A DNA stretch of 36,930 nucleotides from Candidatus Woesearchaeota archaeon (GCA_016180105.1 JACPBZ010000024.1:1-36930), one strand, 5' to 3'; shown: positions 6,151 to 24,864, counted from the stretch's first letter. Numbers and translations are program-made. Notes: generated by a model not told the origin, from the sequence alone.

Positions 6151-6160
6151 GTATATAAAT
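6151..6160 (-). promoter_or_regulatory. TATA box upstream of tldD
   Basis: + strand gtatataaat, reading as a TATA element on the - strand upstream of the tldD ATG at 6118. Confidence 0.5.
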
Positions 6161-6268
6161 TTTATTGGATGACCTTGTTATCTCAACTCAAGCATTATCG
6201 CGGCCACAGTGACGAAAATCAAACACCCAACCACAGCAAGCTGTGGGGGTATGAACCTAATGAAGAAA

Positions 6269-7360: not shown

Positions 7361-7399
7361 AGCATATGATTTAAATCTTTTCGTTTTAAAGAAAAAAAG

Positions 7400-7822
7400 C
7401 TAAGCATAACCAAGAGTGCCTTGAATAGGCCCCAACGATATACCTTTGGCTGAGTCAAGCAAGTCGGAAACTTGAGCTTTCCTCCCAACAGCAGCAACAA
7501 TAGCATCATACGCCCTTGAGGCACTCCACCGAGACCTTCCAAAGTCAATGCTTACTACAGTTTGCTCGCCTGAATAGTTGATTAAGCCGTTGACTTGCCA
7601 AGTGATGCTCATTAAAGTTCCGCCCCAGGCACTTCTCACAGTCAAGCCACCAGGCATTCCAGCTGACCTGATTCCCTGGTAATTGCAGCTTCCATCGGAA
7701 TTCCTTGTGGGCAGGGGCTTTGCCAAACCTACATCAACAACGCCCTTAACAGCGGATCGCAAGATATCATCAAGAGCACCATCCGGCGCAAAAACCCGCA
7801 TCCCCAAAAACGGCGTACTCAC
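7400..7822 (-). CDS. Hypothetical protein
   Basis: 140 aa ORF with GTG start, no strong antisense competitor and an A/T-rich candidate TATA (gataaaaag) upstream. Family not recognised. Confidence 0.5.
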   Translation of the reverse strand: MSTPFLGMRVFAPDGALDDILRSAVKGVVDVGLAKPLPTRNSDGSCNYQGIRSAGMPGGLTVRSAWGGTLMSITWQVNGLINYSGEQTVVSIDFGRSRWSASRAYDAIVAAVGRKAQVSDLLDSAKGISLGPIQGTLGYA

Positions 7823-7917
7823 GCATTAGCAGGAATAGGCATCCCTTTTTATCCTTTCGTACATATTTTTCATATTTCCCAAAAATAAATTTATCAACCG
7901 CGAAACATTTCCCATAG

Positions 7918-7990
7918 CACTGGCCACTGGACAAACTCGCTGCTGCTCGTAGCCCAGTGACCACTGGCCACTGGACAATCGTCCGGACAA
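7918..7990. repeat. Cluster of CACTGG/GGACAA repeats upstream of the Cas4-like gene
   Basis: 17-bp direct repeat CACTGGCCACTGGACAA at 7918-7934 and 7962-7978, an inverted CCAGTG between them, and a third GGACAA (CCGGACAA) just before the TATA element gatatttaaa (7991-8000). Confidence 0.7.
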
Positions 7991-8022
7991 GATATTTAAA
8001 GCACCACCCCTAACAATGGGGA

Positions 8023-8847
8023 ATGCAAAAAGAGAAATTGGCTGCAGCTGAAGCCGGCCGGATAATTTCCGTATCTGACTTGTCTTCCTTTATGTATTGC
8101 CCAAGGCTTCTTTACCAGCAGAAAGTTCTCGGGAAAAGGGAAAAGCTCAACACGGCAATGGTCCTGGGCGCGATAAGGCACAACTTCCACGACCTTGCCA
8201 ACAAGCACGAGGAAAACATCATTGTCCACCTCCCGCAAAAACTTACTGGGGAAGAAGTCATTTCTGCTTACGCAGCCATTTACGAAAACCTGCTCAGGAC
8301 TGCAGTGATGACGCACTCAAAATCCCTGTCCCTTTTTGACATCCAGCCCTTTGAAGTAATTGAGCAGCTCAAAACAATGGCAAACGAGGAAGCACGCTCC
8401 AGGGCAGCCAACGTCTTCACCTTTTCAGAAGCCAACAACATTCACGGAGAACTGCTTTGGAAAAAACTAAGCCCAAAAATAATGACAGAGCTCAAGGTCA
8501 AGTCAGCAAAAATGAGGCTGAAAGGCATAGTTGACAGGATAGAAGTATACCCAGATACTGTGCTGCCAATAGAACTCAAGACGGGAAAAATGCCCTGCGA
8601 TGGCGTGTGGCCAGGCCACAGGGTCCAAGTGGCAGCCTACATGATGCTCCTGCAGGAAACATTCAACGCGCCAGTCAAAAAGGCAATCATAAGATACCTG
8701 GACCACGACACCAGCAAGACAGTGGTGCTAAACCCCTATATGGAACTTGAAGTCACCGAACTCACGGAAAAAGTGAACAGGCTCCTGCTTGGCAAGGAAC
8801 TGCCCAAGCCTTGCGGAAGGGAAAACTGCAACTGCTCAACTACCTAA
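8023..8847 (+). CDS. Cas4-like PD-(D/E)XK nuclease with putative Fe-S cysteines, stand-alone
   Basis: 274 aa. FMYCPRLLYQQK, LKGIVDRIE (motif II D), LPIELKTGK (ExK), HRVQVAAYMMLLQE (Qxxx(A)Y), C-terminal CGRENCNC. No cas1, cas2 or CRISPR array in the window. Confidence 0.87.
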   Translation: MQKEKLAAAEAGRIISVSDLSSFMYCPRLLYQQKVLGKREKLNTAMVLGAIRHNFHDLANKHEENIIVHLPQKLTGEEVISAYAAIYENLLRTAVMTHSKSLSLFDIQPFEVIEQLKTMANEEARSRAANVFTFSEANNIHGELLWKKLSPKIMTELKVKSAKMRLKGIVDRIEVYPDTVLPIELKTGKMPCDGVWPGHRVQVAAYMMLLQETFNAPVKKAIIRYLDHDTSKTVVLNPYMELEVTELTEKVNRLLLGKELPKPCGRENCNCSTT

Positions 8848-9868
8848 TCCTGATCCTGGCATCGGCAAATTCCCTGGTCAAGTTCTTTATGAGCTCGTGA
8901 GCCACAAGCTGCTTGTTCAAGGCATCGTCCACCTTTATGCTCACCGTAAACACAATGTTGACAGAGCCGAACTCCACAAAGCGCACAAAAGGCTCATAAT
9001 CAACCTGTCCCTGCATTTTTTGCTGCACCAGCTTGGCAGCCTTCAAGGCCAGGCGCTCAACCTTGTCAAGGTCAGAATCATACGCAACCCCAAGCCTGAC
9101 AAACACATTAGTGCCCTGGTTCGGCAGGTAATAATTTACCACAATGCTCTGGGCAAGCTTGCTGTTAGGCATTATGATGAAATTATCATTCAATGTCCTT
9201 ATCTTTGTCGAGCGCCAGCCAATGTCAGCAACCAAGCCTTCCTCGCCGTTCTCAAGCCTTATGAAATCGCCAACCCTGACCGGCCTGTCAGCCATAACGT
9301 AAATCCCGGCAAAAAAATTTGCCAGCGTATCCTGCAAAGACAAGGCAACAGCAAGGCTAAGAACACCCACGCTTGCAACCAACGCAGTAACCTTCACATT
9401 AAACTGGTCAAGCAAGCCGATGACTGCAACAATGTAAATAAACACTGTCGCAGCCCTGTTGGCCAGGGGCAGGAAATGCCTCGCGACCTGAGTCTCGGCA
9501 CCGCGGCGCTTTCCCATATGCCAAGCCACGAACGCCGTGAAAATCTTGGAAGAGGCGTAAGCGACAAGGACTATGAGCCCTGCCTTGTAAACCCTTGTCA
9601 AAACATCAATGAAACCTGAGAGAATGCCAAGCTGCAAAATGGCCAGAAAGCCGCCCGTAAAAAGGACAAGGGCATACATCGGCTTCTTCAATGCGGAAAC
9701 CAAGGTGTCATCAAGCGTCGTGCCTGTCTTCTTGGCAATAGTGGCCAGATAAATGTTCATCAAGGTATGCACCAGGACAGCCAAGGCAAGCGACAAAACA
9801 ATGATGATTAACGCCAGCAGGAAGCTTGCATAAGGAGAAGCGGCCAACGAATCAAGCGAAAACACCAT
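8840..9868 (-). CDS. mscS: MscS-family small-conductance mechanosensitive channel
   Basis: 342 aa. TM helices followed by VALSLQDTLANFFAGIYVMADRPVRVGDFIRLENGEEGLVADIGWRSTKIRTLNDNFIIMPNSKLAQSIVVNY. Confidence 0.95.
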   Translation of the reverse strand: MVFSLDSLAASPYASFLLALIIIVLSLALAVLVHTLMNIYLATIAKKTGTTLDDTLVSALKKPMYALVLFTGGFLAILQLGILSGFIDVLTRVYKAGLIVLVAYASSKIFTAFVAWHMGKRRGAETQVARHFLPLANRAATVFIYIVAVIGLLDQFNVKVTALVASVGVLSLAVALSLQDTLANFFAGIYVMADRPVRVGDFIRLENGEEGLVADIGWRSTKIRTLNDNFIIMPNSKLAQSIVVNYYLPNQGTNVFVRLGVAYDSDLDKVERLALKAAKLVQQKMQGQVDYEPFVRFVEFGSVNIVFTVSIKVDDALNKQLVAHELIKNLTREFADARIRIR

Positions 9869-10014
9869 ACGAACGGGAATTTTCGCCTGATTTTATGGTT
9901 TTCGATTCAGCCTGGAGGCCGTCCACAACATTTAAATATAAGCTCTGCCCAGAAAAAGCCAATTTCATTAGCATTACATAATAGTAACTGCTGGGGTTTG
10001 GAGGCGTTATTTCA

Positions 10015-10278
10015 ATGGCAGATGATGACAAGAAATTCTCAAGGCAAATAATCGGCAAGGTCGTTGTCAGCAAGTCAGGCAAAAGATTCGGGGAAGTCTC
10101 CGACATCGTTTACGAGACAAAAACAGGAGAGCTGATTCACCTCGTCCTTGCAAATCCAACCCCATACATCCAAAAGCTTGAGCTTGAGAGAGATGGCGAG
10201 GGCAACATACTAATCCCATTCAGCGCAGTCATGGCAATGGGCGACTTTTTAGTGATTTCTGAAGAAGACATAGTATGA
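10015..10278 (+). CDS. PRC-barrel domain protein
   Basis: 87 aa. IIGKVVVSKSGKRFGEVSDIVYETKTGELIHLVL...NILIPFSAVMAMGDFLVI. TATA (catttaaatata) upstream. Confidence 0.88.
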   Translation: MADDDKKFSRQIIGKVVVSKSGKRFGEVSDIVYETKTGELIHLVLANPTPYIQKLELERDGEGNILIPFSAVMAMGDFLVISEEDIV

Positions 10279-10329
10279 TTTTTTCCCAATGGGAAAACTT
10301 TATATTAAATCCTGCAACCCGCCAAACCA

Positions 10330-11289
10330 ATGGACAGCGCTTTGTGGGCGGAAAAATACAGACCATCAGATTTTTCTGACATAATTGGACAGGAAGAGAT
10401 AGTCAAGAGAATACAAGCCTTCGTGAAGCACAAAAACCTCCCTCACCTGATGTTCGCGGGGCCACCAGGAGTCGGAAAAACATCAACCGCACTGGTCATT
10501 GCGAAGCAGCTCTACGGCGAAAACTGGCGGCAAAACCTGATAGAGCTGAACGCGAGCGATGAAAGAGGCATAGATGTTGTCAGGACCAAAGTCAAGGACT
10601 TCGCAAGAACGCGAGCACTGGGCGACGTGCCTTTCAAGATATGCATCCTTGACGAGTCAGACTCCCTCACAAGGGAAGCCCAGCAGGCCCTGAGAAGGAC
10701 AATGGAGAACTACACGGCAACCTGCCGCTTCATCCTGCTTGCCAACTACTCCTCAAAAATAATAGAGCCAATCCAGAGCAGATGCGCTGTCTTCAGGTTC
10801 AAGCCCCTTGCCGAAACAGAAGTGACAAAAATCATCGACAGGATAGCCGCTTCCGAGAAACTGGCAGTGAGCGAAAAAGCCAAAAAAGCGCTCGTGGAAG
10901 TCTCAGAAGGCGACTGCAGGAAGCTGGAAAACATACTCCAAAGCTGCGCCGTAATGTCCAGCGAGATAACCGATAACCTCATTTATGAGGTTGCAAGCGT
11001 GGCGCGGCCAAAAGAAGTAAAAGAAGTCATAAGCCTCGCCTTTTCAGGAAATTTCGGCAAGGCAAGAGACAAACTGCTCGAGACAATGCTTGCCCACGGA
11101 CTTTCAGGCCTCGACATCATAAAGCAGCTGCAAAAGGAAGTGCTGGAAAGCGAAATAGACGCCAGGAAAAAGCTCCTCCTAATAGAGAAATGCGGTGAAA
11201 TAGAATTCAGGATGAGCGAAGGAGCAGACGAGTTCGTGCAGCTCGAGGCGCTCCTAAGCCAGATTGCACTCGCCGGCCAGAAAACATAG
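10330..11289 (+). CDS. rfcS: Replication factor C small subunit (clamp loader)
   Basis: 319 aa. WAEKYRPSDFSDIIGQEEIV, FAGPPGVGKTS, ILDESDSLTREAQQALRRTMENY, ANYSSKIIEPIQSRCAVFRF. Confidence 0.97.
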   Translation: MDSALWAEKYRPSDFSDIIGQEEIVKRIQAFVKHKNLPHLMFAGPPGVGKTSTALVIAKQLYGENWRQNLIELNASDERGIDVVRTKVKDFARTRALGDVPFKICILDESDSLTREAQQALRRTMENYTATCRFILLANYSSKIIEPIQSRCAVFRFKPLAETEVTKIIDRIAASEKLAVSEKAKKALVEVSEGDCRKLENILQSCAVMSSEITDNLIYEVASVARPKEVKEVISLAFSGNFGKARDKLLETMLAHGLSGLDIIKQLQKEVLESEIDARKKLLLIEKCGEIEFRMSEGADEFVQLEALLSQIALAGQKT

Positions 11290-11356: not shown

Positions 11357-13987
11357 ATGGGATTCAGGAAGCAAAAAGAGGCAGAAAGAGGCAGTCCAGA
11401 GAACACACTGTCATATCAGGTATACTCCCCTTCTCCCAGCGATGAACCGCTGAAGCAGCTGGCCAGCCAGCTCGCCCAAAAAAACACGGACATAGACCGG
11501 CTCAGAAGATACATCACCCAGCTTGAGGAAGGCGAGAAGGGCATAGTCCAGGAGCTGACAAGGCAGCTCGCATCAAAAGACGACGAAATAAGCCGGGTTG
11601 CCGCCCTATACTCGAAAAAAGAGGCAGAAAACAAAAAACTTTCTGACGCGTTCGAGGCGCACATTGTTTCTGAGCGAGACAATGCCGAAAAGATAAAGCA
11701 ACTTCTCCTTAGGAAAGAACAGCAAAACTCAGCCACAATCGACAAGCTGGGAGCAGAACTCGCCAAAAAAGACCTCGAAATAAGCTCGCTACGAAACGCG
11801 CTTGTCGAAAAAAAAGCCACGCTGCCAAGGCAACTGCCAGAGGAAAACCTAACCCAAAAAGCAGAGCTGCACGAAAAAGACCGCCTCATAGGCCACCTCG
11901 GGAAGCTCCTGGAAGAAGAACAACAGCTGAGCAGGGCAACCCAGCAAAAACTATCCAAGCAAATAAGCGAAATGGCGTGGCAAATAAGCCAGCTCAAGGG
12001 CTTTGTCGCAGAAAAAGAAAAAATCATCCAAAGCCTCGAATCAACTACGGAAACAAGCCTCACAACAAGGGATGCTGAGATAAAACGGCTGAGAGAAGCA
12101 ACCGAGAAAAACAGAGAGATGCCACAGCCGCAATCGGCTGAAACCAGTCCACACCACGAAAAACTAATCTCCCGCCTTCGCCACGAATCGACAGCCAAAG
12201 ACGAGGAAATCTCAGCCCTAAGGGAGCAACTCGTTCAGAAAAACTTTAGGGAACAGCGCGAAAGCCCTCACGGCAAGCACTTGGAAGAGCTTGACAGGCT
12301 GCGAAGCGAACTTGAGGAAAAAGAGCATCGGATTGGAAGACTTGAAAGGGACCTGAATGAAGAGCAAAAGCTTGCGGGACACTCACAGGCCAGGCTGAAA
12401 GAGCAAGTGTCAGAAATGGCCAAGCAAACAGAAGAACTGAAAGCATTCCTAATAGAAAAAGAAAGGCTACTGCAAAACCTCGAGACGGCTTTTGAAAAAC
12501 GCCTTGCCGCCAAGGAAGAAGAACTGAGAAGGCTCAAGGAAGCAGTGCACAAAAAGCCAGAGCTTCACTTTCGCGGAGACGTTGACAAGCTCCAGTCAGA
12601 ACTCCAGGTAAAGGAACAGGCATCCAAGATGATGGCCGAAGAAATAGCAAAGCTCAAGGAGCAGTCCGGCCTGCTGAGGAAAAGGCTTGAGGAAAGGCAA
12701 AGGCTATTCTTCGAAAGCGAAAAAGCATACGAGGAACTCATAGCCAAGCTCCGGGAGCAGCACGACACCAGGCTAAGGTCGCTCGTGCAGGACTCATCAC
12801 AAAAAGAAGCAGCGCTACGGACAGCAATTGAAGAAGAAAGGATAAAACTGCAGCAGGAAAGAGCGCTCATCAGGGAAAAAGAACATCAGATCGAGGAAAC
12901 CCTCCAGGCATTTAACGCTACCTCGCAGAAGCTCATAAGGCTCGGAAGCCCTGCTGAAACAGGCTCCCAAGACGAACTGGCACTTCTCCAGCAGCAGCTC
13001 GACGAAAGCAAAAAAGCACTGGAAGAGAAAAAAGCCTACATAGAATCGAAAGAAACTGAACTGAAACAGCTCCTGTCAACAACAGAGGAAAAAATAGCAG
13101 AACTCAAGGCAAAGGAAGCCACGATAGACAGAAAAGAGCAGCTCCTGCTCCAGGAACAGCAAGCCCTCAACCGCGAATTGGAAGTGCTCTCCAACGCAGG
13201 CATAGAAATATCGAAGTCAAAGGACTACATAAAGCAAAAACTGGAACAAGTCGGCACTCAGGAGGCTTACGCGCCATCACCGCAGCCAATCCAAAAATAC
13301 CCGCAGCAATCGCAACAGAAAACTGCCCCAATACCGCAGCCAAAAATGGCATCAGCTGATTTCGGCCTTGCAACGGGTGAAGTGCAGGAAGCACAGGAAG
13401 AAGAAGGCTTTGAAAACCAAAAATTCACAGGAGCAACTTCACCACAGTCAACAGTCCAGGAAGCAGCATCGGCAGCAATAGAAGAAGGCGTGCGAGAAGA
13501 CCTCTTCCCAGCCAAGACAGCCCCAGCGCCAAAGCCCCAAATCAAGCCAATAATGGCAGCAAAGCCAGCCAAGCTAACCAAGACGCAACAAAAGAAGCTG
13601 GCCCAAAAACTCAAGGCAGAGGCCAAGACAGCGCGACTACAGCAGCTAAAACTCAAAAAACAAGCAGCAACCGCACTAAAACAGCAGCAAAAAATAGCCG
13701 CACAGCAGCTAAAGCAAAAGCCATCGCAACCTATGCAAAAACCACTGCCAATAACAACATCACAGCCAAAGGAAATGGCAATAGGAGCAAGGGAATCGGA
13801 AAACCACTCACCAGACCAGGAACTGTTCTCAGAAATGGGAGGCTACTCAGAAACAGACGAGATAAAATCAATAGTCGAAGTCGGACTCTCCCACGGCGAC
13901 TCAGTAGAACAGATAAGAGACTCCCTGCTAACATCAGGCTACTCAAAAGCCAACATCGAGAAAGTCCTCAGCAACGCAAAGAAGTAA
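11357..13987 (+). CDS. Large coiled-coil protein with a basic Q/K/A-rich segment and a small C-terminal helical motif
   Basis: 876 aa of heptad-rich E/K/L/Q sequence. Then low-complexity (KPAKLTKTQQKKLAQKLKAEAKTARLQQLKLKKQAATALKQQQK). C-terminal EIKSIVEVGLSHGDSVEQIRDSLLTSGYSKANIEKVLSNAKK. TATA aatatttaaatac upstream. Confidence 0.85.
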   Translation: MGFRKQKEAERGSPENTLSYQVYSPSPSDEPLKQLASQLAQKNTDIDRLRRYITQLEEGEKGIVQELTRQLASKDDEISRVAALYSKKEAENKKLSDAFEAHIVSERDNAEKIKQLLLRKEQQNSATIDKLGAELAKKDLEISSLRNALVEKKATLPRQLPEENLTQKAELHEKDRLIGHLGKLLEEEQQLSRATQQKLSKQISEMAWQISQLKGFVAEKEKIIQSLESTTETSLTTRDAEIKRLREATEKNREMPQPQSAETSPHHEKLISRLRHESTAKDEEISALREQLVQKNFREQRESPHGKHLEELDRLRSELEEKEHRIGRLERDLNEEQKLAGHSQARLKEQVSEMAKQTEELKAFLIEKERLLQNLETAFEKRLAAKEEELRRLKEAVHKKPELHFRGDVDKLQSELQVKEQASKMMAEEIAKLKEQSGLLRKRLEERQRLFFESEKAYEELIAKLREQHDTRLRSLVQDSSQKEAALRTAIEEERIKLQQERALIREKEHQIEETLQAFNATSQKLIRLGSPAETGSQDELALLQQQLDESKKALEEKKAYIESKETELKQLLSTTEEKIAELKAKEATIDRKEQLLLQEQQALNRELEVLSNAGIEISKSKDYIKQKLEQVGTQEAYAPSPQPIQKYPQQSQQKTAPIPQPKMASADFGLATGEVQEAQEEEGFENQKFTGATSPQSTVQEAASAAIEEGVREDLFPAKTAPAPKPQIKPIMAAKPAKLTKTQQKKLAQKLKAEAKTARLQQLKLKKQAATALKQQQKIAAQQLKQKPSQPMQKPLPITTSQPKEMAIGARESENHSPDQELFSEMGGYSETDEIKSIVEVGLSHGDSVEQIRDSLLTSGYSKANIEKVLSNAKK

Positions 13988-14005: not shown

Positions 14006-15208
14006 TTAATTTGGCGTGCCACCTGGAGAAACACAGGCAGACCAAGCGCCACTGCGGCAAACCCGGACGCCAGTTCCACCTGCTCCTGTTAAACATTTAT
14101 CATCAAGCGCGCCTTCCGTGCACGCACCCTGAACGCCAGCCCCGCTACTTGAACTACTGCTGGAACTACCACTTGAGCTTCCACCACTACTTCCACTACT
14201 ACTGCTCGAACCACTCAATCCTGAAGCACCTGTGCCGTCAGTGGGCAAGTGCTTCACCAAAAGCTTGGTGGACGCGCTAATCAGATGATTGTAGTCAAGC
14301 TGGATATTGAACTTCTGGACAGCATCAAGATTAACCCCGCTCTGGATGCAGGTCACAGAGGCTTCGCCATTTACAAGCCTGACATCCTTTGTCAGGTCAG
14401 CGCCCCAGCCGCTGCAGGTCAAGCCAGCCACGCCACTGTTCACAGTAACCTTAACATAATCCTCTTCCGAGAACCTGCCCCTGTTGCAGGCAGCAGCGCC
14501 AGTGTTGGTCTTGTAGAACGTGCCAGCACCAGACGACTTAACCTTGAACTTCAGTATGACCTTCTGCGTGCCACCCACAGCCTCCTCAAAGGAAGTAACC
14601 TGAACCGGGCCTCCAGAACTGAAGACCGGCTTCGAGCCCTTCACATCACATACTCCCGAAGTAGCCTTTGTCAAGTCCTTCCTCATACAAAAGTCAGCCA
14701 CAGCCCTTGTCTTGTAAGGATAGCAAACATCAGCCTGAATTGGAAATTCATTGTTGCCTTCCAACGACTTGATGTACGCCAGGCGCGTGAAGCTCACTTC
14801 ATCAAGGCCGCCAGTTATCTTGCCACCTTCAGGATCCTTCTTAACCCCATCAAGCTTGAAGGGAAGCTGCTTCTCAAGGCTTGTTGTCGGCTTTCCAACG
14901 CCAACATTGAAATCGCTAGGATAAATGCCACCAATTGTCGTCTTTAGCGTGTTAGCCGGAATATCCTGCTCGCCAACATTCTCAACCCTCAGGGCGATGT
15001 CAAATTCAGAGTTATCAGCAGGTTTGCCTGTTGGGTTGTCGAGCGTTTCTTTTGGCGGAGCATTTTCCAAGAAGCCCACTCTAACACCTTCAGTTCCACC
15101 AATGAACGGCGTTGAGGCTGATGACACAGAACCCTTGTCCCCGCCCTTGCAGCCGGCAATTGCCAAGACTAATACAACGAGAAGAACTGCACAAACCTCT
15201 TTTCGCAT
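14006..15208 (-). CDS. Secreted lipoprotein with Ser/Gly linker and 4-Cys C-terminal module
   Basis: 400 aa. Lipobox LAIAGC after an N-terminal hydrophobic segment. GSSSSSGSSGGSSSGSSSSSSSSG linker. CTEGALDDKCLTGAGGTGVRVCRSGAWSAC tail. Paralogous to 18580..19704. Confidence 0.85.
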   Translation of the reverse strand: MRKEVCAVLLVVLVLAIAGCKGGDKGSVSSASTPFIGGTEGVRVGFLENAPPKETLDNPTGKPADNSEFDIALRVENVGEQDIPANTLKTTIGGIYPSDFNVGVGKPTTSLEKQLPFKLDGVKKDPEGGKITGGLDEVSFTRLAYIKSLEGNNEFPIQADVCYPYKTRAVADFCMRKDLTKATSGVCDVKGSKPVFSSGGPVQVTSFEEAVGGTQKVILKFKVKSSGAGTFYKTNTGAAACNRGRFSEEDYVKVTVNSGVAGLTCSGWGADLTKDVRLVNGEASVTCIQSGVNLDAVQKFNIQLDYNHLISASTKLLVKHLPTDGTGASGLSGSSSSSGSSGGSSSGSSSSSSSSGAGVQGACTEGALDDKCLTGAGGTGVRVCRSGAWSACVSPGGTPN

Positions 15209-15246
15209 TTTAATCCAAAACCGGAAAATGTCGTATTTAAATGTTT

Positions 15247-16364
15247 CTATGCATAATTGAATCCCAGGTCGCAGGTTGGGGAGTCCCGGTTATTCTTGTT
15301 TTCAGCGTAAAGCCATATCCCCTTGCCCAAGTCATCCTGCTCGAAAACGTGAGTCGCTTGAACAAGATTCCAGCCGCCAGTAACAGGATCATATTCGTCA
15401 GCAAAGAAGATACTGCATTGTCCCTCTACATCGGAAAGCTTCTTGCCAATCATCTGGGGCACTACGCTGATGAAGCTGAGAACCTTTGTCTTGACCCTGT
15501 CGCCTCTACTTATCAAATATAGTGCATCACTGTCGTATTTTACCAACAGTGTGCATTCCGGACCATCATTGTGTACCCATGCACCGGCTGCTTCCGTCTG
15601 ACTCAAATTGGATATCCTGTCCGCATCCCGTGATGCCTTGGTTGCCTCAATAAGTGCAGGCGTGTGCCCGCTGTTCTTGAGCTTAAGCTTATTGGTTGCC
15701 TCATCAATGTCAAACAAGAGCTTCCCCGCGAACATGAAATCCCGGAACAGGACCTCGTGAAGCCGGACGACGCGGGCCGACTCGAACTTCCAGCGAAAAT
15801 CCTCCACCTCGTCAGCGGCCTCCAGGTTGACCTTGAAGGCGGTATCCTCCTGTTTCTTCTTTCCAGCTTGTTTTCAGGAACCGCCTCTGCGCACTGTTTC
15901 GTTAGGTAAGTTACCCTTTTGTTATTGTCTTCAATTGCCTCCTCGACATCGTTTCTGCTGTCCACAAACAGCTCAAAAACATTCACGCCACATTTTAGTT
16001 CATCCCCCGAACCGGGTTCGAAGATAAACCCTTTAGCGTACTGATAAATGTCGCCAGCAGGCTTAGGAACATATCTTTCGTTAATCACTTCACCGTTCAG
16101 GCTTAATGAATTAAAAAACCCTTTGCTGACACGTGCCTGGAAGGATTTGTCAAGCAAAATATCCGCACTCACTGAGACCAATTCAAGGTCATTGCTACCT
16201 GTGGCAACAAAATTTTCTATACTGAGGTCAGGCAGAGCGGTCACTGTCGTCACCTGAGCTCCTGTAATGGGGGGGGCAGTGCCACTAAGGGCGTCAAACC
16301 CGACCAGCGCGGCAAGTAGAAGAACAATAACAACTGTCCATTTGGCTCTTTCTGATGTCGGCAT
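15247..16364 (-). pseudogene. Frameshifted membrane-anchored, CARDB-like secreted protein
   Basis: ORF 15603..16364 has an N-terminal TM, LPDLSIENFVATGSNDLE and CGVNVFELFVDSRNDVEEAIEDNNKRVTYLTKQC (CARDB-like). After NKLE it continues in the -1/+2 frame as KKKQEDTAFKVNLEAADEVEDFRWKFES... (ORF 15247..15807). The shift is near 15850-15866. Confidence 0.75.
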
Positions 16365-16451
16365 CTCTTTTCAGCCATCTCTTCAAATACTAATATATAA
16401 ACCCTTTTTTTTTGGAAGATGCGGCAGTAACAGCACTTTTTTTTCAGAAAG

Positions 16452-16459
16452 ATTTAAAT
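16452..16459 (+). promoter_or_regulatory. TATA box for the secreted protein at 16483
   Basis: atttaaat about 27 bp upstream of ATG 16483, consistent with leaderless expression. Confidence 0.5.
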
Positions 16460-16482
16460 CAGGCATTAAGAAAAGAGGGCAT

Positions 16483-18573
16483 ATGCATCATTCGGCAGCG
16501 AAAAAGAGGGCTCTTGTCGCACTAATCATTCTCTCCTTGCTTGTCCCGGCTGCTGCCGGCCAAGTCTCAATAGGGGAAGGAGCAAACGACATAGCAGTCT
16601 CAGACGATATGGCCGGACAGAAGCTTGAGAGCTTCCAGGGCGACTGCGGCTCAAGCATCATAATGGCGTCCTTAAGAGGCGATGGCAAATGGCAGCCTGT
16701 TTTCTTCCCCCCATTTTCAATACCGATTGAAAGCAGCGCTGTTGGCAAAGGGCTAAGAGTGATATCAGTGGGCAAATGCACCCTTTCAGCAAAAGCTTCC
16801 GCAGAAAGACTGGGCACAGAAGCAGCCAAGCTCAAAAAAGGCTACAATCTCATATCAGTCACCAAATCAATGGCAGACAGGTCACTCAGCGAACTGCCAG
16901 GCTGCACATTCGAGGCAGCAAGGCTTTACTCACCCATAGCGTGCAGCCAGCCTGAAACGGAAACCTGCAGCGGAGACTTTGAAATAATAGACCTAACACG
17001 AAAACTTGACCAGTATGCCTTGAAAGGAATCTGGGCAAAAGCGGCAGACAGTTGCATACTGGATGATGAAAAGAGAAAGATTGACCTCGTCGGAGAATTC
17101 CATATAGGGGTATACGACGACCTTGTTGGCCAAAGCCTCCAGAATTTTCTTTCTGATGAATGCAAGTCAAAGGTTTCCTTTTCCGTGTTTGATTACGAGA
17201 GATACGGAGTTCCAAGCGATAAGGCATCACAAGGCATGGAGGGGCTAGGCTTATATGTGAAAAGCAGCGCGTCACAAGGCGAGTGCAAACTGACGACAAA
17301 AGGCTATAATGAAAAACTCGGTTCCACGGCATTAAAACTGTTCGGGGGAATTCCCGGGATTAGAGTTATCCCAAACAGCATGATAGAAACCTCAAAATCA
17401 TTTCAAGACATTAAAGGCACCTGTGAGATGACAGCATTATTTCTGGCCCCCCAGTCAGATCCAAAATGGACAGAGAAAAAAGCCCCTGTTGACTTCAAGT
17501 TCTCATCAGAGTATCTCGGCAAGCCAGTTACTATCACTTCAGGAAATGATTGTGAACTCGAAACCATTCAATCTGCGCCAGCAAGCGCACCAGTTCCTGA
17601 AAAAGCAAACCTCGCCCCAATGCTCAAGCTTTACAAAAGCGACGGCACAGAAATAACAGAAGGCTCCACCCTGAAAGGGGGCCAGACAATAAAAGTCGAG
17701 CTTCACGTCAAGAACACGGGCAAGGCAGCCACCAAAGTCACCGACCTGAAGGACCAAGGGGACCCAACAGTATACAATACTGTCAATTTCCACAAAAACG
17801 CTCCAGGCGGAGGAAACATTGCAGAGCCTGTTTATTCAACCATCAACCTCGTGCTTCCAAACGATAACATCGCCGCAGGCCAGTCCTTGAAGACAAAGGA
17901 ATGGCAAATCCAGCTGCCTTCAGATTTCACGGGAAAGGCTGTCGTGGCAGCGGCAGTCGACACGCAAGACGACTATATTGAAGAAAACTCCGACAACAAG
18001 CAAACGGTCACGTTCAATGTCGTTGCCCTGAAGCTGCCGAACCTCGTGCCAACAACAATCACGCAGACCATAACCCCAGCGACAAGCACATCGGAGGCAG
18101 TCGTGACTGACATAACAGCCAACGTAAAAAACACTGGCGAGCTTCCCGCGCTTCCTGTTTACAACGGATTTGAGCAGTTCATAGAAGTCACCATCACGGT
18201 GCGCAAGGGCGACACGGCAATATGCAAGGAGCTAAGCAGGAGAATAGTCACCGTGAAACCTGGCGAGGAAGAACAGTTCCCTGTAGTGCCGAAGGCAATG
18301 GGCGGCAACGGGCCCTGCAAGCTGCCAGATGCCACTGCCGCATACGGGGTAATTGTTGAAGCTGACACGCTCAAATCAGGAAGCGTCACAGGCATAGTTC
18401 AGGAGGAGAGCGAAGAAGACAACCTCAAGAGCTATGTTCTCGGAAGTGCCACGAGCAAGGCCACGGCCGGCCAGGCGTGCAGCCAGGACATTGACTGCGA
18501 GTCAGACCTGTGCGTGAGAAAGAAGTGCATGAGCGACGCGCAAAGGGAAGCAATCCTCAGAATATCAGGATAA
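16483..18573 (+). CDS. Secreted protein with signal peptide, internal duplication, CARDB-like domains and a C-terminal Cys cluster
   Basis: Longest ORF begins at 16267, but ATG 16483 gives a signal peptide (MHHSAAKKRALVALIILSLLVPAAAGQV) and is preceded by a TATA box. Duplicated KKGYNLISVTKSM...GCTFEAARLYSP / GGIPGIRVIPNSM...GTCEMTALFLAP. C-terminus CSQDIDCESDLCVRKKC. Confidence 0.85.
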   Translation: MHHSAAKKRALVALIILSLLVPAAAGQVSIGEGANDIAVSDDMAGQKLESFQGDCGSSIIMASLRGDGKWQPVFFPPFSIPIESSAVGKGLRVISVGKCTLSAKASAERLGTEAAKLKKGYNLISVTKSMADRSLSELPGCTFEAARLYSPIACSQPETETCSGDFEIIDLTRKLDQYALKGIWAKAADSCILDDEKRKIDLVGEFHIGVYDDLVGQSLQNFLSDECKSKVSFSVFDYERYGVPSDKASQGMEGLGLYVKSSASQGECKLTTKGYNEKLGSTALKLFGGIPGIRVIPNSMIETSKSFQDIKGTCEMTALFLAPQSDPKWTEKKAPVDFKFSSEYLGKPVTITSGNDCELETIQSAPASAPVPEKANLAPMLKLYKSDGTEITEGSTLKGGQTIKVELHVKNTGKAATKVTDLKDQGDPTVYNTVNFHKNAPGGGNIAEPVYSTINLVLPNDNIAAGQSLKTKEWQIQLPSDFTGKAVVAAAVDTQDDYIEENSDNKQTVTFNVVALKLPNLVPTTITQTITPATSTSEAVVTDITANVKNTGELPALPVYNGFEQFIEVTITVRKGDTAICKELSRRIVTVKPGEEEQFPVVPKAMGGNGPCKLPDATAAYGVIVEADTLKSGSVTGIVQEESEEDNLKSYVLGSATSKATAGQACSQDIDCESDLCVRKKCMSDAQREAILRISG

Positions 18574-18579
18574 TTTTCT

Positions 18580-19704
18580 TTAAGCCTTGCACTCGCTGCC
18601 CCAGGAGCCCTCATCGCTGCACGTCTGCCACCCTTTCAGGTTGTCCCTTGTCGTGCACGCTCTTTTGTCCTTGGGCTTGCAGCCAAGACCCTTCTCAACC
18701 CTTATCGGGACAGGAGCTGAAATAGCGTTATAGCCGTAACGAAGCTCAAGCTTCAGGGAAGTGACAAATGCGCCAAGGTTTGCTTCCTCGGTGAACTCAG
18801 TTTCAAAGCCTTTAGGGCGATAGCTGCAGAGAATGTAATCCTTTTCAGCCTTCCCGGAAAGATGGATTCCGCCATCCGCGTCCTTGCTGCACTCCAAAGC
18901 CTGCCCATTCAGCTCAGCCCTGTCTATGAAAACAACATTAATCCTGTCCTTGTCCCCGCTGATTGTCTTTGCCGTGCAGAAAAGGTCCAGGCTGTCCTTG
19001 TCTATCACAATGCCATTGCCAACGTTAGCAACGTAAATCTTGAACTTTGGCCTGATAACTTTCTTGCCATTTACATCGTAACGCTCCATCACGGTCTCAA
19101 TCTTCCTGACAGCAACAGGGGCGCCCTGGCTTTTCAAGGCAACAGGCACCTTTGAGTCACAGGCCTTGCGCTGCTTCTGGAAGCTGTACGTAGAGGTATC
19201 AACGCAAACATTCGCGGCCAGCTTAGTCACATATTGATAACAGGCGCTCGCAAGAAAGCCAGTGTCAATAGCCTCATCGTTGTCAGAAAAACTCCTTGCC
19301 CTTGCCGTTACCCTAAACCCGTTCAGATAGCCTGCCGCGCTGGTCGTTTCCTTGCCTTCCAGCTGCTTCTTCACAGTGATAATCGGAGTCTTGAAACTGA
19401 AGCTACTATCACCAGCCAGGTCCACACCCTCAACAGTGAAAGCACCTCTTGTATCCCGCAAAGTGATTATGGCGCCTTCCGGCACCGTGGTTGCCCCCTT
19501 ATTTGAAATCATAAGAGCAAAATCAACAGAGCTGCCTGCCGTGATTGGGCTGGCCACGCTTTCAGGAGCAACCCAGGCATTCATCCCCTCAACACCCGTG
19601 AACGCATCCGGAATCTCAACACCCCTTGAGCCGCCCTTGCAGCCTGAAACCAGGACTACGATAAGCAAAATCATAATCACAGCCACAATGTTGCCCTTTG
19701 CCAT
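18580..19704 (-). CDS. Secreted lipoprotein, paralog of 14006..15208
   Basis: 374 aa. Lipobox LVSGC followed by KGG. ACYQYVTKLAANVCVD. C-terminal CKPKDKRACTTRDNLKGWQTCSDEGSWGSEC. Confidence 0.85.
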   Translation of the reverse strand: MAKGNIVAVIMILLIVVLVSGCKGGSRGVEIPDAFTGVEGMNAWVAPESVASPITAGSSVDFALMISNKGATTVPEGAIITLRDTRGAFTVEGVDLAGDSSFSFKTPIITVKKQLEGKETTSAAGYLNGFRVTARARSFSDNDEAIDTGFLASACYQYVTKLAANVCVDTSTYSFQKQRKACDSKVPVALKSQGAPVAVRKIETVMERYDVNGKKVIRPKFKIYVANVGNGIVIDKDSLDLFCTAKTISGDKDRINVVFIDRAELNGQALECSKDADGGIHLSGKAEKDYILCSYRPKGFETEFTEEANLGAFVTSLKLELRYGYNAISAPVPIRVEKGLGCKPKDKRACTTRDNLKGWQTCSDEGSWGSECKA

Positions 19705-19706
19705 AT

Positions 19707-21728
19707 TCAGGTCTCTCCTGCGCCTGTCGCAGGGGGGGAATCAGCAACTTTCACATCTGCGCCCTTCACATCAAAACTCACAGACCTCTTGGTGGAAAAC
19801 AGGTAATCAACACTCACCCTGAAAGTTGCGCCAACCCAGTCAGGGTCCATTTCATTAACCACCCCGTCTCCGTTGACGTCAAAAGCCGTATTTGACAGGA
19901 TAATCTTGCACTCAAAGGGGAGGCTCTCGCCAACAAACTTCAAGTTCCCAGGGTCTTCCGTATTAGCAGTGCCATCTCTCGTCAAGTAGCCCTCCCTGAC
20001 CTCATATCTTCCTTTAGTAGTATCCGCGGTGAAAATTTCGCCACATCTTTCGTCTGAAAGGTCAAGGCTTATTTCCTTGGGGGTTGTCAAGGCAAGCTTA
20101 CTTATTCCCCCTATCTCACCTTCCCAGCCGCCGCTCCTGGCAATGTAAATCACAAAACCGGAGGACTTTGCGCCTTCAATGTCAATCCTCACTGGCGGAT
20201 TGGCAAGCTCCACAGGACCCCACCTTATCGCAACAGGACCATTGTCGTGCTTTGCCTCTGCAGGAGGAACATCCTTCAGGCCCAGCTTCATCACATTAGG
20301 GTCCTTGGCAGTAATCAAAGCGTCAAGCTTATCAGAGCGCATAAATGCCGTTGACAGATACCCGTCAGCCTTGAAAGAGTACTTAACGTCAAACTCCACA
20401 CTCCTTGCTCCAGGCTCGCCGCCCTCAAACTCGCACTTTGCAGTAATCGGCCTCCCATAGCTCACAAGCAAAGGCTTAGGAGGAGTTTGCTTAATCCTCT
20501 GCTTCAGCTCTTCCGCCGTAACAGGCTCAATGAGAGCGCCCTCTGCCTCCCCTGCAGGGTCACTGCAGCTAATGCCAACAACCTCAATATATCTCTTTTC
20601 AGCATCATCCGGCAATGGATTTGGCACGTCAAGAACAACACCGGGAGTTGGGTTCTTATTGAAGTTCAGATTGAAACTGCTGGGCATATTAGGGTCATTA
20701 GTAAGCTGAAGCCCAATCTTCGGCCCCTCCTCAGGCTCGCCAAAGCCGTAAATCTGCTCAGCCCTCTCGTAAGCGGCAGCGACAGGCGCCTTGAGGAAAT
20801 CACCCCGCAGTATTCTTCCAGCGTTTGTCTGGAATCTTGACCAAATGCTCTCAGCAACCTCCTTTTCCTCTGGAGTCAGGCTGGAAACCTTGGCGTGGTA
20901 AACTGACGTAACTGTTGGCAATGCCGCGATGAAGTAGAAAATAAGCAACGAAATGAATATTCTCCTCGCTACCCTGGTGTTGTTGTAAAGGGTTGCAGCG
21001 GGAAAATAAATCCAAAGCGGAAACAAGAGCCTGTTGAAAATGAAGGACAGGATAGAATAAGCCATCGCGCCGAAGCTGCCTGCAAGGTTGCCAACGCTTT
21101 CCACAACCCTATCACGGAATATTGGCATTCCATAAACATCAACAAAGGCGATAAGTGGAAGGTACCTGAAAAAATCCGCGCCGGGCTTCTCCATAAACTT
21201 GGCAGTCAGCCTCCAGTAAAAGTAAAATGCCACAACCAAGGCGAAAATCGTGGGAATCCGCGCAATTTGCGACTCGGCGTTTAACAATCCCGTAAGAGCT
21301 ACCAAAAGGCCTGCTGCTGAAAGCGCAACGCCAATATTCATGAACTCCAGGGCAACGCCAAAGGCAATAAAGGCAACAACCGCGAAAAGAAGGTGCATAT
21401 AGGACGCGGCCCCAATATTAAAACCGAAAACTTTCCAGTCAAGCCAGAAAAGAACCACGCCTCCCCACATCATGAATCCGGCAATGTTCTCAGGAAGCCA
21501 GTTAAGGACCCAACCAGCAACGCCCTGGATGGGCTTTGCAACGAGCTGCCCAGCTGCAAAGCCGGCACCGGCAGAAAAACCCTGCCCAATGCTGCCCGCC
21601 AAGGCCGGAGCGTGGCCGCTGCCAACATTCCTCAAGCCCTGACCCAATCTGGCAAACAAGGCCTGCCAGCCTCCTCCGCCAGCCGCAGCCCCAATCACGC
21701 CAGCAGCCGCACCTACCAATAAACACAC
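19707..21728 (-). CDS. Multi-TM membrane protein with large exterior region and an EF-hand/dockerin-like loop
   Basis: 673 aa from GTG. Gly/Ala-rich N-terminus, several TM helices, then a long soluble region with DVNGDGVVNEMD. Ends next to the lipoprotein start. Confidence 0.82.
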   Translation of the reverse strand: MCLLVGAAAGVIGAAAGGGGWQALFARLGQGLRNVGSGHAPALAGSIGQGFSAGAGFAAGQLVAKPIQGVAGWVLNWLPENIAGFMMWGGVVLFWLDWKVFGFNIGAASYMHLLFAVVAFIAFGVALEFMNIGVALSAAGLLVALTGLLNAESQIARIPTIFALVVAFYFYWRLTAKFMEKPGADFFRYLPLIAFVDVYGMPIFRDRVVESVGNLAGSFGAMAYSILSFIFNRLLFPLWIYFPAATLYNNTRVARRIFISLLIFYFIAALPTVTSVYHAKVSSLTPEEKEVAESIWSRFQTNAGRILRGDFLKAPVAAAYERAEQIYGFGEPEEGPKIGLQLTNDPNMPSSFNLNFNKNPTPGVVLDVPNPLPDDAEKRYIEVVGISCSDPAGEAEGALIEPVTAEELKQRIKQTPPKPLLVSYGRPITAKCEFEGGEPGARSVEFDVKYSFKADGYLSTAFMRSDKLDALITAKDPNVMKLGLKDVPPAEAKHDNGPVAIRWGPVELANPPVRIDIEGAKSSGFVIYIARSGGWEGEIGGISKLALTTPKEISLDLSDERCGEIFTADTTKGRYEVREGYLTRDGTANTEDPGNLKFVGESLPFECKIILSNTAFDVNGDGVVNEMDPDWVGATFRVSVDYLFSTKRSVSFDVKGADVKVADSPPATGAGET

Positions 21729-21781
21729 CTCATTTTACTCATTACTTCCTGAAATTGCCGTGGAGTGTTTTAAACTTTTCC

Positions 21782-22264
21782 CTAATGAAGCTGTTCAGGC
21801 CTGATTCTTTGTATGTCGTTAAGCTTGTCAAAATCAGCGTCAGTGGACAATATTTTCTTGCAATCATACAACTTCATTGTTTGGTAATGTATGCTGTCTC
21901 GTGGCAAAATCCCTTTTTCCAAAAGTTCTGGTATGACTGCAGCCAAATCCCCATCAGCGTCGGCAATCTCAAGGTTGTCGAATGAGAACATTACTTCAAA
22001 GACCTCCTTAATTTTAGGGGCGAATTCCAGCACAACTTCAGGATTTTTTCTTATTTTTTCTGCAGGGTGAACGGCGTATTTGCTCTTGATAAGCCTCATT
22101 AGAATGACATAAGCCAACTCATCAAGGGTCAAGCAACTTGTGAGACCATACCTTTTCCCTTTCTGCATCTCATCAAAGATTTTCTTTACACCTTCAAAGA
22201 ATTCAGATTTCTCAAAAAAGAAGGCGTAAAAGGCGTTCGTATCAAGATAAATCATTTCGGTCAT
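21782..22264 (-). CDS. vapC: PIN-domain ribonuclease, VapC-type toxin
   Basis: 160 aa. YLDTNAFYAF, DELAYV, LPRDSIHYQTMKLYDCKKILSTDADFDKL (conserved acidic residues). ATGA overlap with the upstream antitoxin. Confidence 0.85.
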   Translation of the reverse strand: MTEMIYLDTNAFYAFFFEKSEFFEGVKKIFDEMQKGKRYGLTSCLTLDELAYVILMRLIKSKYAVHPAEKIRKNPEVVLEFAPKIKEVFEVMFSFDNLEIADADGDLAAVIPELLEKGILPRDSIHYQTMKLYDCKKILSTDADFDKLNDIQRIRPEQLH

Positions 22265-22497
22265 TCTGTTTTTTCATACTCCCAAATCAGGTCCTTGACC
22301 CTTGTAAAATCTTTGTCTTTGCCAAGCATGCCAGCCTTTTCAATGGGGTTTGAGATTTTAGGCATCAAGATAATCTCATTACCCACCGCTTTAGCTATCA
22401 ATTCAGAGCCTTTCCTAATCCGTAGCTCTTCCCTAATTTCTGAGGGCAGCGTTATTTGACCCTTCTCTCTCACTTTTATTAGTGTTACATTTTTCAT
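22261..22497 (-). CDS. vapB: AbrB/SpoVT-family antitoxin, VapB-type
   Basis: KVREKGQITLPSEIREELRIRKGSELIAKAVGNEIILMPK. Internal ATG at 22497 preferred over the ORF-track start at 22527. Confidence 0.87.
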   Translation of the reverse strand: MKNVTLIKVREKGQITLPSEIREELRIRKGSELIAKAVGNEIILMPKISNPIEKAGMLGKDKDFTRVKDLIWEYEKTE

Positions 22498-22560
22498 AAA
22501 GTTCTCACTAATCGAGAAAAGTATCACTATTATTTAAATGTTCCCACTTTAAATGTTGCG

Positions 22561-23772
22561 TTAACTGCACTCGGAAGCCCTTCTACAGTCAAGAACAAGC
22601 CTTAGCTCTATTATGCTCAGAGTTGTTTCAGGCACCAGCCTGAGGAAGTTCGTGCCGGCAATCAGGAAGGAGTCAACATTCTTCGAGTAGTTTGCCGCCC
22701 TGGTATCAAGCCTGGTCTTCTGGTTGTTAATCTCAACGGTTGCAGTCTTCCTTTCAAGGTCGTCCACAAAAGTTATGCTCAACGTTGAGTTTATGCTATT
22801 GTTTTCAATCCTCTTGAAGACTGAGCTGTTTATGCTAAAAAAGTATATCGGAAATATGGGCTCCTTCAGCTTGGTCCTGAGAACGGCCTGGTCAAGGAGA
22901 TACGTGCCCTTTTCCGCAACAAACCTGAAATCATTCTTGCCTGCCAAAAGGTCTTTCGGGTCAAGCTGAAGCCTTTCAGGGTTACCACAGTCCGGAACTT
23001 TCGAAGCCAGAAGCTTTTCATTGACATAAACAGAAAGGACGCCGACATCCTTCAAGCTGCATTCAACAAAGTAGCTGAGAGAGGCTTCTGAAATGAGGTT
23101 AAACTCCTCCTGGCCCAGGATTACCGTGTGCCTTGCTTCCTTGTTGTCGACCTTCTCTACCGTACCCGTGATTTTCACATCCCTCAAGTCATAGAAATTC
23201 TTCGAGAAAGGCTTATACCAGGGGACAGGCTCAGTGGAAAACTCAAACAAGTTCTCTTCCTTAAGCTCCAGGCTCAACGGATCAGTGAACGCGTCAACTT
23301 CCCCCCTGAAAATCTCAGTTTCATCCTGGGCAACTATAAGGACTCCACTGTGGTCGTTCACCGAAAAGCTAAGCTTTGCGTTCTCAACCTTATCCTTGAC
23401 AGCCAGGACAACAGACCTTTTCCTTTGAACACTGCGTGAAGTCTCAACATTAATTGAGTCAAAGCTCTTAAGGATGGCATCCTCCTTCTTGGTGAAAAGA
23501 TTGAATGACGGAATCCTATGCTCAAACTCCTTCTCCCTCAGCTTGGTCAGGACACCCGGGTTTTCCTTGATGAGAACTGCGCCAGCTATCGCTTCCGGGG
23601 ATATTGCCTTCGCTGCAGAAATGTCCCTTTCAAGCAGCTTATCCCTCTCGCCCTTAGGCAAGAACAATATGTAGAGTATTATGAAAGCAGCAATGACCAT
23701 GACAAGAATGGCAGCATTAGCACCAGTCGGAAGAGAAGGAGGCTCTGCACCCTTTTTCCCGTAATTCCTCAT
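22561..23772 (-). CDS. Single-TM anchored exterior protein, function unknown
   Basis: 403 aa. One N-terminal TM (AAILVMVIAAFIILYILFLP) then a beta-rich soluble region. TATA upstream. Confidence 0.8.
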   Translation of the reverse strand: MRNYGKKGAEPPSLPTGANAAILVMVIAAFIILYILFLPKGERDKLLERDISAAKAISPEAIAGAVLIKENPGVLTKLREKEFEHRIPSFNLFTKKEDAILKSFDSINVETSRSVQRKRSVVLAVKDKVENAKLSFSVNDHSGVLIVAQDETEIFRGEVDAFTDPLSLELKEENLFEFSTEPVPWYKPFSKNFYDLRDVKITGTVEKVDNKEARHTVILGQEEFNLISEASLSYFVECSLKDVGVLSVYVNEKLLASKVPDCGNPERLQLDPKDLLAGKNDFRFVAEKGTYLLDQAVLRTKLKEPIFPIYFFSINSSVFKRIENNSINSTLSITFVDDLERKTATVEINNQKTRLDTRAANYSKNVDSFLIAGTNFLRLVPETTLSIIELRLVLDCRRASECS

Positions 23773-23803: not shown

Positions 23804-23826
23804 GTTTTTCCTCCCGCCCCAATGCC

Positions 23827-24864
23827 GTGAGGATACTAAAGAAAGACCTGAGAAACGGGAAAATTGCCGTGCAAGCCCAAAGCCTTGATGACCTGTGGTG
23901 CCTCAGCCAAACCGTGGCGAAAGGCGATACCGTTATAGGCAAGACCGCAAGGAAAGTCAAGCTGGGTTCTGCCGAAGAGGCAGTCAAGAAGACTTACGTA
24001 CTGTCAATAGCTGTTGAAGAAGTCAAGTTCGAGGACCAGGCGCTAAGGCTGGCCGGAGTGACGAACGAGGCAAAGGAAGACATACCGCAAGGGTCCCATC
24101 ACACCATAACCCTGGAGCCAAGCGAGACCATAACCATAATAAAAGAAAGGTGGCCAAAATACCAGCTGGACAGGCTCAACCAGGCAACCGAAGCCCAGCT
24201 CACGGCGCTCATCGTAGTGCTTGACCGGGAGACGGCAATACTGGCAAAGCTCAAAACAAGAGGCTACGAAATAATCACAGAGCTAAAAGGAAAGGTAAGA
24301 AAGAAAGATTACAAAACAACAGAAGCAACTAATTTCTACAAGGAAATCACCGCAGCAATCAAGGATTACGATGACAGGAACAAGCCAGACAAGATAATAA
24401 TCGCCAGCCCAGCGTTCTGGAAGGAAGAGCTGATGAACGAGCTGGAAAGCGATGCCAAGGCTGGACTGCTGAAAAGCAAAATCGTGGCGGCAACGTGCAG
24501 CAGCGTAAGCCAAAACGCCATAGACGAAGTGCTCAAGAGGCCTGAAATGAACACTGTGCTGGCAACAGCATCTGCGGCAAGAGAGCTGAAGATTGTCGAT
24601 GAAGTAATGACAGAAATAGCAAAGGAAGGCAAGGCAGCCTACGGCAGAAAAGAAGTTGAGGACGCGGTCGAGGCCGGCGCTGTTGAAAAGCTCCTGGTGA
24701 CAGACGTGAAAGTTTACAATGACAGCAGCCTCGAAAGGCTGATGAGAAAGGCAGAGGAAAACGGCGGCAAGGTCTTCATAATAAACTCAGAGAACGAGGC
24801 AGGGCAGAAACTGGACGCCTTGGGAGGAATGGCAGCAATACTGAGGTATAAACTTTCCTATTGA
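23827..24864 (+). CDS. pelA: Pelota mRNA surveillance protein (aPelota)
   Basis: GTG start at 23827 gives MRILKKDLRNGKIAVQAQSLDDLWCLSQTVAKGD. Central domain IIIASPAFWKEEL. C-terminal ARELKIVDEVMTEIAKEGKAAYGRKEVEDAVEAGAVEKLLVTD. Confidence 0.95.
   Translation: MRILKKDLRNGKIAVQAQSLDDLWCLSQTVAKGDTVIGKTARKVKLGSAEEAVKKTYVLSIAVEEVKFEDQALRLAGVTNEAKEDIPQGSHHTITLEPSETITIIKERWPKYQLDRLNQATEAQLTALIVVLDRETAILAKLKTRGYEIITELKGKVRKKDYKTTEATNFYKEITAAIKDYDDRNKPDKIIIASPAFWKEELMNELESDAKAGLLKSKIVAATCSSVSQNAIDEVLKRPEMNTVLATASAARELKIVDEVMTEIAKEGKAAYGRKEVEDAVEAGAVEKLLVTDVKVYNDSSLERLMRKAEENGGKVFIINSENEAGQKLDALGGMAAILRYKLSY

Follow-up and report, generated by a model that had tools for sequence, protein, structure and literature searches.

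Results

The window, by which we mean the whole stretch of 36,930 nucleotides analyzed here, comes from a member of the order Woesearchaeales (phylum Nanobdellota, DPANN archaea) with a genome of 0.89 Mb in 49 contigs. An earlier, sequence-only reading had proposed that six exterior or membrane proteins, consecutive apart from an inserted TA pair, form an undescribed cell surface assembly, and all six are present where it placed them. Read on the minus strand from high to low coordinate, the order is F, VapB/VapC, E, L1, B, and L3, with C on the plus strand between L1 and B. Pelota flanks the surface locus on one side, and a coiled-coil gene and the gene for replication factor C flank it on the other. 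The features, labeled according to the putative module defined below, are as follows.

23824-24864, plus strand: Pelota, divergent neighbor of F (start approximate)
22561-23772, minus strand: F, one N-terminal TM anchor plus a region read as three jelly-roll domains; module core
21782-22527, minus strand: VapB/VapC pair, between F and E; outside the module
19707-21728, minus strand: E, multi-TM protein with an ectodomain of ~400 residues; module core
18580-19704, minus strand: L1, lipoprotein of the first-position class, with a 2-bp gap to E; module core
about 16483-18573, plus strand: C, secreted, repeat-bearing protein; accessory in the L2 slot (start inferred from the signal peptide)
15247-16364, minus strand: B, signal-anchored, CARDB-like protein with one C-type repeat, frameshifted; accessory
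14006-15208, minus strand: L3, lipoprotein of the third-position class; module core
11357-13987: coiled-coil protein of 876 residues, between replication factor C and L3
10330-11289, plus strand: replication factor C small subunit (RfcS), neighbor past the last lipoprotein
10015-10278: 87-residue protein with a possible C-terminal TM segment, beside replication factor C

The six proteins do lie next to one another, but because C is on the plus strand, their genes do not make up a single operon. None of the six gave a Pfam or NCBIfam match above the cutoff. The inserted TA pair consists of VapC (PIN) and a VapB-like protein with the MazE/AbrB fold. Beyond L3, the 876-residue coiled-coil protein has relatives in the genus, in the family, and in one other family (L058), and the 87-residue protein (sequence MAEEDKKFSKQLIGKTVVSKTG...) is kept beside replication factor C throughout the order.

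C carries about four copies of a repeat of ~90 residues, and the same repeat occurs once in B. Neither protein reaches the Pfam cutoff, C giving only a weak match to CARDB (E = 0.046). B, described earlier as a CARDB-like anchored protein, does exist, but it has no Pfam match above the cutoff and is broken by a frameshift near position 15,850, with its N-terminal part in an ORF at 15603-16364 and its C-terminal part, in a different frame, in an ORF at 15247-15807. The interruption (window positions 15603-15870) falls in an A-rich stretch. The frameshift could be an assembly error or a real mutation; programmed frameshifting is less likely. Homologues of C were found only in the window's genus and one other genus of its family, and relatives of B only in the genus. 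The two sit exactly in the slot of L2 and appear to be recent local additions, that is, genus- or family-level inserts. A VapBC-like pair fills the gap between F and E in two members of the genus (window, 21782-22527; L039, 11117-11844), and other small-gene pairs occur within the module locus in other genomes. In L091, a 1472-residue gene on the opposite strand (6160-10578) lies between E and the first lipoprotein and is comparable to C; taken with C in the window, it makes the interior of the module look like a recurrent insertion site.

A first search with E matched 38 of 79 related genomes. The loci around these matches were fetched, ORFs were called, and iterated HMM searches were run; nearly every locus holds F, then E, and then two or three lipoproteins of one family. 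We compared 57 loci drawn from the order and from elsewhere in the class, most of them chosen by a match to E or F; in 53, lipoproteins follow downstream of E. F lies on the same stretch in 44 of these 53 loci and within 155 bp of E in 39, and in 18 loci the first lipoprotein gene shares 4 bp with E. Because the loci had mostly been chosen through E or F, independent whole-genome searches were added for F and for the lipoproteins. In 28 of 32 genomes, the top-scoring lipoprotein proved to be no more than 12 kb from F, and whole-genome matches to E mostly coincide with the places of F and the lipoproteins. In one genus (g7), F has been relocated away from E.

Within the class, the F profile matched 183 of 281 genomes (130 of 157 when only those of good quality are counted) and 195 of 236 genomes in a sample of the phylum (181 of 207 of good quality), mostly as a single copy, and a broader profile recovered F in 19 of 27 genomes where it had previously been absent or weak. 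Deep families keep the order F-E-L-L(-L), some with TM anchors replacing lipid. In family f77 (L117 and L118), divergent F, E, and two small anchored proteins adjoin Pelota; the divergent copy of L118 lies beside Pelota in a single-contig genome of 668,961 bases with about 25% GC, which is probably that of Nanobdella aerobiophila. In family f83 (L116, 3798-6751; L121, 7080-9949; L122, 1939-6684), TM-anchored proteins of ~300 residues occupy the lipoprotein places, an apparent switch of anchor type from lipid to TM. A scan of named genomes with narrow peptide patterns gave matches only in close relatives, all of them Woesearchaeota or Nanoarchaeota; the named close relatives are Candidatus Woesearchaeota, mostly groundwater genomes.

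In 37 of 61 loci, Pelota is at most three ORFs upstream of F, and in 26 of 45, RfcS is at most three ORFs away from the last lipoprotein. That these two are also kept indicates that gene order changes slowly here, and the position of Pelota beside F is probably ancestral gene order only. Judged by gene order, the conserved set comprises F, E, L1, L2, and L3 in fixed order, with four of the window's six proteins belonging to it. Conservation of the neighborhood, which had been envisaged for all six families, thus extends to F, E, and the lipoproteins, whose orthologs are the opposite of scattered, being co-located in most genomes that have them; B and C are local. The proposal of an undescribed surface assembly survives as a conserved core that matches no named family, but its scope is narrower than envisaged: B, C, and the multi-TM form of E are local, and L2 is missing from the window. 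The idea that F, E, and the lipoproteins may act together is better than a guess.

L1 and L3 are true paralogues (E = 3e-9 in an L1 search of the window's own genome, which returned nothing besides L1 itself and L3). The motifs that had been ascribed to them, namely, CKGG after the lipobox, F-x-G-x-EG, CYxYxT...C, and a Cys tail, are real in both; however, the Cys tail is not a trait of the family, being found in 5 of 126 members, all from the window's genus. In a tree of these 126 sequences, the clusters correspond to first, second, and third position, and for loci with three lipoproteins the tree requires just 4 switches of position label. L1 of the window falls in the first class, and L3 groups with the third; L2, the second class, is missing in the window's genus and present in most relatives of the order. 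Since the lipoproteins sort by position on the tree, we regard them as old, distinct subunits rather than recent copies. The model of L1 (pLDDT 91, pTM 0.83) is that of a lipoprotein of beta-sandwich domains, and Foldseek searches with it returned generic Ig-like matches only (e.g., integrin).

As had been read from the sequence, E is a multi-TM protein with a long exterior part; in the window, residues 114-275 hold about five or six hydrophobic stretches, and ~400 residues follow. Elsewhere, in other orders, most E proteins have about 430 residues and one TM segment, and the multi-TM part therefore looks like something gained in the Woesearchaeales and a small number of other lineages. When the profiles of E and the lipoproteins were compared, the match was weak (2% probability) but collinear over 167 columns. 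The lipoprotein HMM matched 17 of 54 E proteins at E <= 1 and none of 324 controls (shuffled or reversed sequences); it also matched 8 of 651 other proteins, in several cases at the signal peptide. Given a profile comparison this weak and these off-target matches, we go no further than to suggest that E and the lipoproteins have an ectodomain in common. No convincing match to a solved structure was obtained with any of the three family profiles.

The AlphaFold2 model of F (pLDDT 88, pTM 0.55) has a TM helix followed by an all-beta region, which we read as three jelly rolls. Its top Foldseek matches are largely carbohydrate related (beta-galactosidase, other GH2-type sugar-binding domains, and many chains of BcsB), and the whole-model TM-scores of the top matches for both F and L1 reach at most about 0.3. 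PF03170 (BcsB) recognizes 3 of 43 F proteins, at best with E = 4.1e-6, and the F of the window is not one of them. No relation to E or the lipoproteins was found with the F profile. Some F variants are ~560-590 residues long (L057, 499-2187; L091, 14763-16475; and further genomes), and in these the profile match breaks off at about position 320. In L057 it resumes some 150 residues further on with the terminal part of the profile, so variants of this type contain a large insertion close to the third jelly roll. A Pfam scan of the long variants gave no match.

In 11 of 40 Woesearchaeales E genes, a Pfam scan placed a peptidoglycan hydrolase at the end of the protein, C-terminal to the conserved ectodomain, as follows.

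SLT transglycosylase: L067, L063, L049, L059
Glucosaminidase: L043, L050, L090
Amidase_2: L051
M15: L053
M23: L091
NlpC/P60 (marginal): L041

Among 145 genomes of the order, nine further ones have SLT, two have glucosaminidase, and one has M23 at the place of E, the hydrolase in each case being encoded by a long open frame situated 2-5 kb downstream of F and assigned by position rather than by alignment to E. SLT at the E position was found in 13 genomes in all, and E seems to terminate in a hydrolase from one of six unrelated families in no fewer than 23 Woesearchaeales genomes. Four of the seven above-cutoff glucosaminidases in the 145 genomes are at the E position (binomial, ~1e-10 if placed at random genes). 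E of the window terminates 15 residues past the ectodomain, and no hydrolase was found in it by Pfam; E has no hydrolase tail in the window's genus, nor do E genes from most other orders. The window's genome gave zero matches to SLT, glucosaminidase, or Amidase_2 and only a subthreshold match to M23. That six unrelated enzyme families are found at the same end of E suggests that E is a carrier with an exchanged payload. The archaea in question are not known to produce murein, so the target of the hydrolases should be bacteria. We regard the predicted fusions as the first functional clue to the module.

Discussion

The core of the module has no clear match to any Pfam or NCBIfam family or solved structure. 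Like F, the cellulose synthase subunit BcsB is membrane anchored and extracytoplasmic with jelly-roll, carbohydrate-binding-like domains, and Foldseek matched F to BcsB oligomers. However, F differs in its predicted three jelly rolls and its N-terminal anchor, the whole-model TM-score is about 0.2, and no glycosyltransferase that could be a cellulose synthase partner occurs beside F among the Pfam-scanned window genes. The predicted secretion system arCOG01314/DUF4350 (PMC5898192) resembles the module in having several co-encoded membrane and secreted proteins and Ig-like ectodomains. We rejected it because its signature, DUF4350, was found in 0 of 29 relatives, the window's own genome included, by a search that was positive in 3 of 14 control genomes. 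The sequence-only reading had recognized no pilus or archaellum here, and we concur: the Pfam-scanned window genes include no component of either and no ATPase or platform protein of a type IV secretion system, type IV pilus, or archaellum.

In the same archaea, exterior proteins bearing peptidoglycan-degrading domains have already been described. Large murein transglycosylases occur in Woesearchaeota and Pacearchaeota (PMC8204110 and PMC9723730); they are described as single proteins or genes, whereas the module would be a conserved multigene carrier with six exchangeable hydrolase families. E might belong to the published family fam00969. A survey of modular hydrolases (PMC12352652) reports archaeal peptidoglycan hydrolases that kill bacteria and are prominent in Nanoarchaeota; these are archaeal enzymes aimed at bacterial walls, as the E tails would be. 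The available portions of the three papers do not mention a carrier module. Module 98 of PMC8204110, which consists of 51 mostly uncharacterized families common to Woesearchaeota and Pacearchaeota, could include the F, E, and L genes.

Gene order, the lipoprotein classes, the anchor signals, and the hydrolase fusions are documented here at the level of sequence. We infer, in addition, a physical complex, glycan binding, and contact with a partner. F, E, L1, L2 (where present), and L3 would form one membrane-anchored complex outside the cell, for contact with another cell. F and E would be held by TM helices and the lipoproteins by lipid, the remainder consisting of beta-sandwich domains outside the membrane. 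The jelly rolls of F probably bind glycans, either those of the cell's own coat or those of the partner, and E would be the variable tip, which in many Woesearchaeales is hydrolase tailed and might open a bacterial wall locally on contact. In the window's genus, where E has no enzyme, binding may instead come from C and B, which sit where L2 would be. We give an even chance to this reading of the module as a surface contact platform that is armed against bacterial walls in some lineages. Against it, the tail is absent from the window's own E and from E of most other orders, jelly-roll and Ig folds are generic, the kept flanks point to slow change of gene order, and the near-universal presence of the module could equally mean a housekeeping role in the envelope.

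Given how widespread the module is, a role of this kind is the chief competing explanation: its proteins would anchor or build an S-layer or sheath, and the hydrolase tails would be a later addition in one order. The mostly single copies, the all-beta ectodomains, the exchange of lipid and TM anchors, and the enzyme-free module outside the Woesearchaeales are all consistent with this, but for a coat that contains no murein it is hard to see why murein hydrolases should have been fused on again and again. Moreover, the S-layer proteins proposed for Nanobdella have other gene numbers (MJ1_0160 and MJ1_0707; PMC11420986), a comparison of numbers rather than of sequences, and on balance we find a housekeeping role rather unlikely. 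Alternatively, the sugar-binding-like jelly rolls of F and the varied murein hydrolases on E could belong to a surface scavenging complex that binds and, where armed, digests environmental wall fragments or polysaccharides for nutrients without cell contact. The reduced metabolism of these archaea, known from the literature, would favor such a complex, but the conserved block contains no transporter or cytoplasmic sugar-use gene and is enzyme free in most lineages, and we think scavenging quite unlikely. The combination of a multi-TM E, lipoproteins, and anchored ectodomain proteins is also reminiscent of secretion machines, and bacterial type IV secretion systems likewise carry wall-cutting enzymes. 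A new secretion or transfer apparatus with the multi-TM part of E as its channel is nevertheless highly doubtful, as E has one TM segment in most loci of other orders, the window locus has no ATPase of such a system among its Pfam-scanned genes, the 29 relatives lack DUF4350, and the Pfam matches of E include no channel family. Finally, unrelated surface genes might simply have stayed together where gene order changes slowly, as Pelota and RfcS have stayed near. However, the F-E-L order outlives both flanks, which vary between orders, and the overlapping starts in 18 loci and the three lipoprotein classes kept in order also make neutral synteny most improbable.

A contact platform might also have a visible counterpart. 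In cryo-tomograms, Nanobdella aerobiophila and YN1 bear a cone-shaped attachment organelle that lies, in place of the S-layer, on the exterior side of the cytoplasmic membrane and has been proposed to be widespread in Nanobdellota (PMC11104419 and PMC11420986). As the module is membrane anchored, outward facing, and nearly phylum-wide, F-E-L1-L2-L3 might be building blocks of this organelle, the hydrolase-tipped E being the version for bacteria. Distribution and topology fit, but we consider this identification unlikely.

The Nanobdellota are tiny, mostly partner-dependent archaea. For their biology, the module amounts to a short list of four or five phylum-conserved candidates for how DPANN archaea hold, breach, or feed on other cells, usable for proteomics, labeling, and structure work in existing cocultures. 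The exchangeable tails suggest that many Woesearchaeales act on bacteria via a fixed surface carrier. If true, this would join scattered reports of enzymes into one testable system.
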